NCBI GenBank assembly: GCA_027485695.1 | Contig: JAIXQO010000002.1 | Coordinates: forward strand, 666,006 to 730,005 | Reading direction: 5' to 3' | Source of the DNA: Pseudomonadota bacterium | GTDB lineage: Bacteria; Bdellovibrionota; UBA1018 | DNA: 64,000 nucleotides | Shown: positions 14,560 through 44,357 of the stretch, one piece after another | Numbering within the stretch: position 1 is the first letter of the stretch | How the letters are laid out: each line of letters begins with the position of its first letter | Notes under the pieces: generated by a model | Told to the model about the DNA's origin: nothing | What the model saw: only the letters and a program-made list of their open reading frames with translations | Databases searched by the model: none | Translations under genes and position numbers: made by a program

Positions 14560-14672
14560 CTGAGTTCTTAAAAAGATTTTGCTCCCCAGACTCCTGTCTT
14601 TCTGAAAATTTTCCCTTCGGGAAAAGCGCTTCACGCTTTTTCAGAAGCGCAAAAGTCTTTTTAAGGACTCAG
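14560..14672 (-). repeat. Structured intergenic repeat, copy A
   Basis: Outer arms CTGAGT...ACTCAG; reverse complement core CTGAAAAAGCGTGAAGCG-CTTTTCCCGAAGGGAAAA-TTTTCAG followed by GACAGGAGTC. Confidence 0.8.
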
Positions 14673-14721
14673 CGCACACTAAGACAAAGCCAAAACCAAC
14701 AATATAACCGTCCCTTTAAGT

Positions 14722-14836
14722 CAGACTTTTTTTTCAAAAAGGCGAGCGATTCTGAAAAAGCGTGATGCGGTTTTGGCGTAGCCAAAATTTTCAGAAGGGC
14801 AGGAGCCCGTTCGATTCGCCTTTTTAAAAAAGTCTG
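14722..14836 (+). repeat. Structured intergenic repeat, copy B
   Basis: Outer arms CAGACT...AGTCTG; core CTGAAAAAGCGTGATGCG-GTTTTGGCGTAGCCAAAA-TTTTCAG followed by GGGCAGGAGCCC. Confidence 0.8.
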
Positions 14837-14852
14837 CTAATATCGCGGGTAT

Positions 14853-15074
14853 ATGTCATCCATCGACTTGCCTGTACTCGATCGCGAAAAGTACTTCCAA
14901 ATCCTGAAGAACGAGAGCCTTTCGGCTGCACTCACGACCCTTCACCGCGATTCTGAGCTTCTGGAGTTCGACACCTTCGAAGGACGAGACGGTTACAAAG
15001 CTGAGTTCTATCAGCGCCTCGAAGAATACCGCGAGTTCTCTCGCGAACTGTGGCGCACGTCCCTGGCCGGATAA
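14853..15074 (+). CDS. Small hypothetical protein (73 aa)
   Basis: Compact ORF starting 16 bp after repeat copy B; charged, helical composition. Confidence 0.4.
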   Translation: MSSIDLPVLDREKYFQILKNESLSAALTTLHRDSELLEFDTFEGRDGYKAEFYQRLEEYREFSRELWRTSLAG

Positions 15075-15110
15075 CGGATAGCCGCCCGCTCTCTTCGAAC
15101 GCCCCCATTC

Positions 15111-15620
15111 CTAGTCAGTAATATCCGTAGAAAGCGGCTCTAACACCGCGGCTTGCGGTTCGTCTTTCTCTGAAAACACATAGCTCTGCGTTCCCGCGAT
15201 GAAATCATGGAGTGCACGTCTCTCCGGATTAAACACCACCATGATATAACCCGCAAAAAACGGCAGAGTAGATGCGATATGTCCGATGTACCGGAGGAAA
15301 CTCTGCTTGAGCGTGAGTCGCTGCTTGGTCCGATAATCCACTACCACGACGTTCACCATGCGCTTACCCAGTGTCCAGCCCGTCCAGTAGTGCATACCCA
15401 CCGTGTACGGAAGCCCCACGAAAATCCCGGCCAAGATATTCACGAAGAGCTGCTGCTGCTGAGTGAACGCTTGCGCGTACGGAACGTCCTTAAAAAGCAT
15501 CAGATGCAAGAGCCTCAGCGCGATCTCGCAAAAAACGTAAGTGACCACCAGGCACACGATCTCATCAAAAACCGAGGCCAAAGCTCGACGCCAAAATCCC
15601 GCAGGGTGCTTGAGTAACAT
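15111..15620 (-). CDS. RDD-family membrane protein
   Basis: GFWRRALASVFDEIVCLV, YWTGWTLGKRMVNVVVVDYRTKQRLTLKQSFLRYIG. Confidence 0.85.
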   Translation of the reverse strand: MLLKHPAGFWRRALASVFDEIVCLVVTYVFCEIALRLLHLMLFKDVPYAQAFTQQQQLFVNILAGIFVGLPYTVGMHYWTGWTLGKRMVNVVVVDYRTKQRLTLKQSFLRYIGHIASTLPFFAGYIMVVFNPERRALHDFIAGTQSYVFSEKDEPQAAVLEPLSTDITD

Positions 15621-15649
15621 GAAGCCCAGTCTCGCATTTCAGGTCCCCA

Positions 15650-15683
15650 AAATCAAAGGCCCCTCACGATCCGTGAGAGGCCC
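15650..15683 (-). terminator. Terminator-like hairpin between cox operon and RDD gene
   Basis: Minus strand GGCCTCTCACG-GAT-CGTGAGGGGCCTTTGATTTT. Confidence 0.55.
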
Positions 15684-15704
15684 AGGTATCTGTATTCATC
15701 CAGA

Positions 15705-15815
15705 GTTTTTGAAAGAAAGTCGGAGCGCGTCTGAAAAAGCGTGAAGCGTTCGCGTCCTTAGACGCGATTTTCAGTAGGGCAGGAGCCCGGCAAGCGAGGA
15801 CTTTCTTTAAAAAAC
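15705..15815 (+). repeat. Structured intergenic repeat, copy C
   Basis: Outer arms GTTTTTGAAAGAAAGTC...GACTTTCTTTAAAAAAC; core CTGAAAAAGCGTGAAGCG-TTCGCGTCCTTAGACGCG-ATTTTCAG followed by GGGCAGGAGCCC. Confidence 0.8.
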
Positions 15816-15818
15816 GAC

Positions 15819-16709
15819 CTATGGCTTCTGCTTCGAGAACGTTGCCGCATCGAGACGATCACCGTAGTGCATGAGCGAATCGGATGCGCCTGGAACAACT
15901 TGCTTGCCCGAACCAGCTCCCGCTTCTTGAACGAGTTTTTTCATCGCCCATTCCACCGGAACACTTGGAGCAGCGTCACTGCCCGCACTATCCTTGGTTG
16001 GATCGACGCCGATTTTAGCTAAATCAGCCGTCTCGTCTTTCAAGATATTCGGACCAATCGATGCGACGTAATGAGAAAGCGCCCAACGATCGTCCATCGG
16101 AAGCGTGGCAAAAGATGCCATGGCTCCGCCAGCAATACCCTCTTTCAGAGTTTTGAAAATCTGAGAAGGTTTACGACCGTTTTTCCAGCCAGCGTCTTGC
16201 GTGAAGTTCCGAGGATGCGGATTGAGTGCTGCGGCCGCAGGGCCATTGCCCTCACCAGCGGCACCGTGACACGAAACGCACTGCTGCGAAAACACGTCCT
16301 TGCCATGCGCGACGAGTTCCGGAGTTGGCTCCCAAGGTTTCTTGAACTTGGAAGGTCCTGCGATCGCCTTAAAGATCGGCTTGTTATTCGTGTAAACGTT
16401 TCCACGGAACAGAAGGTCCGTCGAGGTCAACACAACGAAGATCGCGAGGAACACGAAGCCACTCGCGAAGATCACCGTGTTGGACGGATCATCTTTGCGA
16501 AGGTTCATGAACACGCCGACGACGATCGTCGCTTTCACGCAAGCGACGAGCATACCGACCACGTAATTCAGTGATCCGAGGTGCACGAACGAGAGCGCGA
16601 ACGTGATGACGGTGAGTACCAGGAGCGCCGCAAAAGCTTTGAAGGCGACGCCATCCGGCAGGATGTAGTGATGACCATGGGAAGAATCGTGATTGTGATC
16701 GTTTGCCAT
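15819..16709 (-). CDS. Cytochrome oxidase subunit IV-like membrane domain fused to a c-type cytochrome domain
   Basis: COX IV-like N-terminus (YVVGMLVACVKATIVVGVFMNLRKD), then HGKDVFSQQCVSCHGAAGEGNGPAAAALNPHPRNF with CXXCH. Confidence 0.8.
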   Translation of the reverse strand: MANDHNHDSSHGHHYILPDGVAFKAFAALLVLTVITFALSFVHLGSLNYVVGMLVACVKATIVVGVFMNLRKDDPSNTVIFASGFVFLAIFVVLTSTDLLFRGNVYTNNKPIFKAIAGPSKFKKPWEPTPELVAHGKDVFSQQCVSCHGAAGEGNGPAAAALNPHPRNFTQDAGWKNGRKPSQIFKTLKEGIAGGAMASFATLPMDDRWALSHYVASIGPNILKDETADLAKIGVDPTKDSAGSDAAPSVPVEWAMKKLVQEAGAGSGKQVVPGASDSLMHYGDRLDAATFSKQKP

Positions 16710-32897: not shown

Positions 32898-32920
32898 TTC
32901 GAGAAACAACGAACCAAAAT

Positions 32921-32956
32921 AAAAGGGCCGATTCTCTTCCGAGAGTCGGCCCTTTT
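32921..32956. terminator. Bidirectional terminator-like hairpin
   Basis: AAAAGGGCCGATTCTC-TTCC-GAGAGTCGGCCCTTTT. Confidence 0.8.
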
Positions 32957-32976
32957 ACCTTCAAAAAAACTAAAAA

Positions 32977-44297: not shown

Positions 44298-44308
44298 ATA
44301 AAATAAAA

Positions 44309-44342
44309 AAAGGGGATGACGGCGATCCGTCATCCCCTTTTT
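44309..44342. terminator. Bidirectional terminator-like hairpin
   Basis: AAAGGGGATGACGG-CGAT-CCGTCATCCCCTTTTT. Confidence 0.85.
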
Positions 44343-44357
44343 CTATTTTAACTCAGA

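Follow-up and report, generated by a model that had tools for sequence, protein, structure and literature searches.

Palindromic elements in a 64-kb window

The window, by which we mean the whole 64-kb stretch of DNA that was analysed, holds three full copies (A, B and C) and one truncated copy of a structured intergenic element, and we find that the full copies share one architecture, with the stems and at the positions that a preliminary description had given them (Table 1). Copies A and B form an inverted pair with about 50 nt between their P1 ends. A gap of about 3 nt separates copy C from the stop codon of a minus-strand gene (15819-16709, COX4_pro/cytochrome c); past copy C, before an RDD gene, lies an ordinary terminator. 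Each of the three full copies folds better than 200 of 200 dinucleotide shuffles (z from -3.3 to -7.1). The truncated copy is probably the fourth copy, D, of the preliminary description; P4 and P1 were looked for there and neither was found. Two other structures in the window, at 44299-44350 and 32920-32957, are ordinary long two-way terminators that separate convergent genes.

Table 1. Positions of the elements and their parts in the window
Feature	Position	Strand	Remark
Copy A, whole, P1 end to P1 end	14560..14672	-	own-genome covariance-model match G000:C2:680552-680672, 110.7 bits
Copy A, P1 5' arm (minus-strand sense)	14652..14672	-	pairs with 14560-14580; inverted repeat I3, 21 nt, 90% complementary
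Copy A, P2 5' arm CTGAAAA and invariant AGCGTGAAGCG	14627..14644	-	
Copy A, P3 TTTTCCC-GAA-GGGAAAA	14609..14625	-	
Copy A, P4 AGAC-AGGA-GTCT	14588..14599	-	
Copy A, P1 3' arm (minus-strand sense)	14560..14580	-	inverted repeat I3
Copy B, whole	14723..14835	+	covariance-model match, 101 bits
Copy B, P1 5' arm, inner part	14730..14745	+	pairs with 14816-14831; inverted repeat I10
Copy B, P2 5' arm CTGAAAA and AGCGTGATGCG	14752..14769	+	
Copy B, P3 TTTTGGC-GTA-GCCAAAA	14771..14787	+	
Copy B, P4 GGGC-AGGA-GCCC	14797..14808	+	
Copy C, whole	15705..15815	+	covariance-model match, 97.3 bits
Copy C, P1 5' arm	15705..15721	+	pairs with 15799-15815; inverted repeat I8, 94% complementary
Copy C, P2 5' arm CTGAAAA and AGCGTGAAGCG	15731..15748	+	
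Copy C, P3 TCGCGTC-CTTA-GACGCGA	15750..15767	+	
Copy C, P4 GGGC-AGGA-GCCC	15777..15788	+	
Truncated fourth copy: P2 GCAAA/TTTGC, motif AGCGTGAAGCG, long P3	36052..36102	-	R2 match 24.4 bits, E 0.00076; R1 match 29.1 bits

A conserved core inside variable arms

The outermost part of the element is P1, a long stem that bears at its tip a core of four helices: P2, the mini-hairpin GC-GTGAN-GC, P3 and P4. P1 usually measures 20-60 bp and its sequence is unique to each copy in the window's own genome; at one locus (L215 in G317) it reaches 104 bp without a mismatch and occupies most of the intergenic space. The P1 arms are not conserved, many copies carry T tracts inside P1, many have arms of A-tract/T-tract type, and CTAG- or TTAG-like letters recur at the P1 end, overlapping stop codons. 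In many copies of the window's own genome (G000), a single bulged base, often C, is seen about 5 bp outside the core in the 5' arm of P1.

P2 is followed by an 11-nt bulge, AGCGTGANGCG or AGCGGAWGCG, in which the mini-hairpin can form, a reading supported by a sister core that other species carry behind prpD and that has a longer hairpin (GGGCC-TGGAT-GGCCC) at the same place. The tip of P3 is C-GNA-G in 33 of 45 triloops and the loop of P4 is of NGGA type; stem sequences are free and junction letters conserved. The single-stranded motif that had been called invariant is conserved, except that the W of AAAGCGTGAWGCG can be any base across the family and that some members have the alternative form AAGCGGAWGCG; the AGGA loop of P4 is also conserved, but TGGA, GGGA, ACGA and others occur in its place. 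AAGCGG is the hexamer of primosome assembly sites; neither a primosome-site reading of it nor a comparison of the GGA loop of P4 with CsrA sites was confirmed.

Pairs in P2 to P4 comprise 1083 Watson-Crick, 2 G-T and 7 A-C combinations, and P2 and P3 of a 42-copy set contain 2 wobbles in about 546 cells, compared with 8 G-U in 131 pairs of six tRNAs of the window's own genome, a small control. A C-GNA-G tip is unusually stable in DNA minihairpins, and GNA triloops occur in RNA too. The lack of wobble and the GNA triloops point indirectly to DNA; G-U pairs would likewise be lost if selection acted on the fold of both strands, as it does in a two-way terminator.

An uncatalogued family of Bdellovibrionota

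Copy counts rest on searches. The 18-mer core, with up to 2 mismatches, occurs at 22 places in the window's own genome, compared with 1 for the reversed control pattern, and the whole architecture is present at 19 of the 22. The preliminary description had proposed a covariance-model search of this and related genomes together with a covariation test, and both bear it out. A model built on 19 copies gives 37 matches at E≤1 in the own genome, which holds about 30 copies in all, every one intergenic. Across the phylum, 30 of 370 Bdellovibrionota genomes contain the family according to covariance models. The covariation score is 0.50 for 19 own-genome copies against 0.18 ± 0.02 for shuffled controls, and 0.70 for 42 copies of 24 genomes against 0.19 ± 0.01 shuffled and at most 0.12 slid, far enough above the controls to uphold the claim that stem sequences vary while pairing persists.

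Occurrence is patchy across at least 8 families, and in the phylum scan most relatives lack the element. With the 42-copy model, matches appear in 10 of 24 genomes belonging to the Bdellovibrio-like genus g89, and 101 genomes around an Accumulibacter have none. The matches of a genome-wide pattern scan were MAGs of Bdellovibrionales, Bdellovibrionia and Pseudobdellovibrionaceae, one MAG labelled Lysobacteraceae and one Accumulibacter match, the last of which we reject as chance. The MAG titled Lysobacteraceae bacterium WA131c (JAGTJX, G037/G064; loci L074, L078 and L087) appears to correspond to a genome assigned to the same order as the window, and its title looks wrong. Carriage by viruses was likewise rejected, as none of four pattern matches in IMG/VR contigs is confirmed by the covariance model. 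Rfam returned no family at the gathering score (tRNA only, otherwise weak chance matches), in keeping with the earlier view that the family has no name, and no description of it was found in the literature searched. These searches establish that the family is real and uncatalogued, and that it consists of palindromic elements dispersed in genomes of Bdellovibrionota.

Position behind stop codons, with the core on the antisense strand

None of 30 copies in the own-genome analysis overlaps a called gene, the position counts resting on our own gene calls. In most copies, the gene that adjoins the 3' side of the model has its stop codon within a few nucleotides of P1. The conserved letters are confined to one strand, which is antisense to the preceding gene (19 antisense versus 5 sense in tandem gene pairs); GC skew reveals no replication-strand bias, with copies about equal on either strand. 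Mismatches in P1 lean to types tolerated on the conserved strand: under a strict filter we count 37 G-T versus 26 A-C (p=0.21) and 21 A-G versus 6 C-T (p=0.006), the latter being the sole significant contrast.

Homologous neighbour genes were considered as the target and rejected, since neighbours are rarely shared (a gene resembling topoisomerase VI subunit A in G010 and G037; AAA regulators) and no general rule emerges. The idea that P1 is a mere pre-existing terminator was also rejected, because long short-loop hairpins are too rare (14 in about 850 kb). Long spaced palindromes are rare as well outside the element and related families, with 1 in 400 kb of G198.

Concerted evolution of the two arms

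At orthologous loci the arms of P1 change together. At locus 1, the paired part of P1 distinguishes G198 from G204 by five substitutions and one indel of 2 nt, all mirrored; at locus 2 (G219 versus G212) nearly all P1 events, two indels included, are mirrored and the core differs at one position; and at locus 3 a 1-nt indel is mirrored in both arms between the near-identical genomes G198 and G201. A mirrored 1-nt indel also separates G211 from G218 behind prpD. Flanking 60-nt blocks have diverged about as far as the P1 arms. Neither the concerted nature of the stem changes nor the antisense placement of the conserved strand relative to the preceding gene had been noticed in the preliminary description.

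Template switching has been described as a process that makes and mends perfect stems in one step (PMC8794818), and the multi-nucleotide changes found here, mirrored in both arms at near the flank rate and with few mismatched intermediates, fit such copying. Copying across the palindrome explains the arms; independent compensation would lag behind neutral change and could hardly be expected to produce an identical indel twice. The hairpins of PMC8794818 resemble ours in their multi-base compensatory changes and in perfect stems made or mended at once; they differ in being short stems of RNA genes, whereas our element is repeated, has stems of up to 104 bp and shows 1-2 nt indels mirrored between orthologues. 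The junction letters are clearly conserved, so a complete absence of selection goes beyond the data. Arm perfection in MAGs could partly reflect assembly; single-contig genomes show the same features.

Presence, absence and candidate enzymes

At orthologous sites the element is present in some species and absent from others, as is expected of mobile DNA. At the locus of a protease gene and its partner encoding a small exported protein, it is found in 4 of 12 Bdellovibrio-like species that have this gene pair, the four carriers being closely related. Behind prpD, most of 24 species have a long palindrome, either of the element family (G219, G212) or with the sister core; an ordinary terminator-like hairpin stands there in G217, G209 and G199. 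Copies inside G010, G037, G061 and G024 have P1 and the outer ends in common, so the whole hairpin is the repeated unit there; in the own genome no two copies have stems in common, and the copies therefore look old, without any trace of recent spread. The compared loci yielded neither a target-site duplication nor an exact empty site, because the nearest element-free species are too diverged.

We found no transposase, integrase or excised form tied to the element. RAYT-like genes are present in many Bdellovibrionota. The RAYT (Y1) profile PF01797 has no match in G000, which has the most copies, or in G058, and one match below the cut-off in G039; a RAYT protein query has no match in any of the three, and 20 RAYT loci examined contain no element. 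The reverse transcriptase profile PF00078 has no match in G000 or six other carriers. Since carriers exist without either enzyme, a RAYT/Y1 transposase and a reverse transcriptase were both rejected as requirements. A stretch upstream of RAYT-like genes of Bdellovibrionota, CCCATTGCCCCA (L130, L139, L140), is common to these genes and unlinked to the element.

Interpretation

We lean, with somewhat better than even confidence, towards small dispersed palindromic DNA elements of Bdellovibrionota that are probably mobile and whose arms are kept identical by template switching. The elements are probably mobile or formerly mobile DNA, and they are possibly retained as gene-end hairpins. In the mechanism we envisage, the conserved letters would be read by a protein or strand-processing enzyme on a folded single strand, probably of DNA, and the stems would need pairing only. 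Replication that switches template across the palindrome would restore arm identity, copying a change in one arm to the other in one step, and the element would spread, or would once have spread, by insertion near gene ends through a putative enzyme. The copies are also likely to act, as a side effect, as two-way terminators of transcription or as hairpins at mRNA 3' ends, which may explain their persistence. A bolder version, which we put forward tentatively and consider rather improbable, is a new class of mobile palindrome in which a folded single DNA strand moves, the four-helix core is recognised, the arms are rewritten from the other arm or the flank, and the enzyme is neither a RAYT nor a reverse transcriptase.

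The preliminary description had offered a structured RNA and a 3'-end or termination element among its readings, and the two meet in a cis-acting 3' UTR element, a two-way terminator or RNase-stopping hairpin whose core would be a protein or ligand site. Such a function is possible from the fixed orientation directly behind stop codons, and A-tract/T-tract arms in many copies, strong covariation and the terminator-like hairpins at the prpD spot of element-free species, among them G217, G209 and G199, all suit it. The bidirectional intrinsic terminators of the own genome, such as the one at 44299-44350, are also long A/T-flanked hairpins directly behind stop codons, but their loops measure 3-8 nt and lack the conserved core. 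Several observations speak against the RNA reading: G-U pairs are almost lacking, 1-2 nt indels are mirrored in both arms, the conserved letters and loops lie antisense to the preceding gene, and occurrence is patchy with none in most relatives; a termination role is further at odds with the separate ordinary terminators that adjoin copy C and locus 1. On balance we regard the 3' UTR element as unlikely, though a serious candidate. That the copies are independent genes for trans-acting small RNAs is very doubtful: the conserved loops and compact fold would fit, but the arms are too variable and their complementarity too perfect, no promoter-like sites beyond chance adjoin the window copies, and, if G198 is B. 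bacteriovorus HD100, the attack-phase small RNAs listed in PMC3627812 include none of its elements, which lie near 423.5, 2406 and 3086 kb.

The third reading on offer, a mobile REP-like element, comes nearest of the three by lifestyle. Like REPs, BIMEs and REPINs, the elements are short dispersed extragenic palindromes near gene ends, sometimes in inverted pairs (A/B; G000:C6:798974/799142), and many Bdellovibrionota have RAYT-like genes. REPs, however, are built on a conserved 20-40 bp palindrome, one end of which bears a tag such as GTAG (PMC3733652), and they have a cognate RAYT; our elements are unlike them in size, with long arms unique to each copy and conservation in a four-helix core, and the RAYT partner is absent from the window's genome and unneeded in two other carriers. 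Movement by a RAYT, already disfavoured by the negative searches and the empty RAYT loci, is highly improbable. A folded recombination site of integron attC type, with the bottom strand read behind each gene, is about as far-fetched as the small RNA genes: conserved structure rather than sequence, one folded antisense strand behind stop codons and the recurring single-base bulge in the P1 arm recall attC, yet there is no integron or cassette array, the neighbours are ordinary chromosomal genes, the flanks lack conserved attC-like end boxes and the core is different.

To prove an RNA functional, one ordinarily relies on covariation of its stems. In the present family covariation is strong in a repeat whose arms evolve as a unit at about the flank rate, indels included, so that copying at the DNA level can yield covariation without selection on RNA pairing, and the family is a natural set for measuring the covariation that such copying produces. 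Predatory bacteria also gain an uncatalogued repeat family, whose conserved core is predicted to have a protein partner.

Composite copies and related palindromes

Two own-genome copies, L010 (G000:C4:13967-14146) and L013 (G000:C1:205847-206013), are composite, with extra hairpins within P2 (TTTTGGGCC..GGCCCAAAA, GGCAGGAAAGCC-type); their inner hairpins are nearly alike, as if an element were nested in an element. Four loci of G024/G059 (L053, L059, L062 and L123) all carry on their left side a tRNA 3'-end-like stretch (TTCGAATCCCTC ... CCGCCATTT) and an inserted small hairpin, and L062 adjoins a tRNA-Ser gene, as if the repeat had acquired a tRNA end. At L061, L064, L066, L068 and L070 of G037, a second motif in inverted orientation (AAGCGGATGCG, with an AGGA hairpin) lies outside P1, so that P1 at these loci may double as P3 of an outer element carried by the opposite strand.

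The prpD-prpB intergenic region (L263-L286) contains one or two long palindromes in most Bdellovibrio-like species, the second having a third type of core (GTTCGCCGAGTTCCGCAGCAGC..GGGATGGCGTCCGCGAGGACTGTC) in G198, G201, G204, G205 and G214. Another spaced palindrome, at L188:10317-10423, has 30-bp arms and a different core with CCATCCAGG, a motif also found in the sister core behind prpD.
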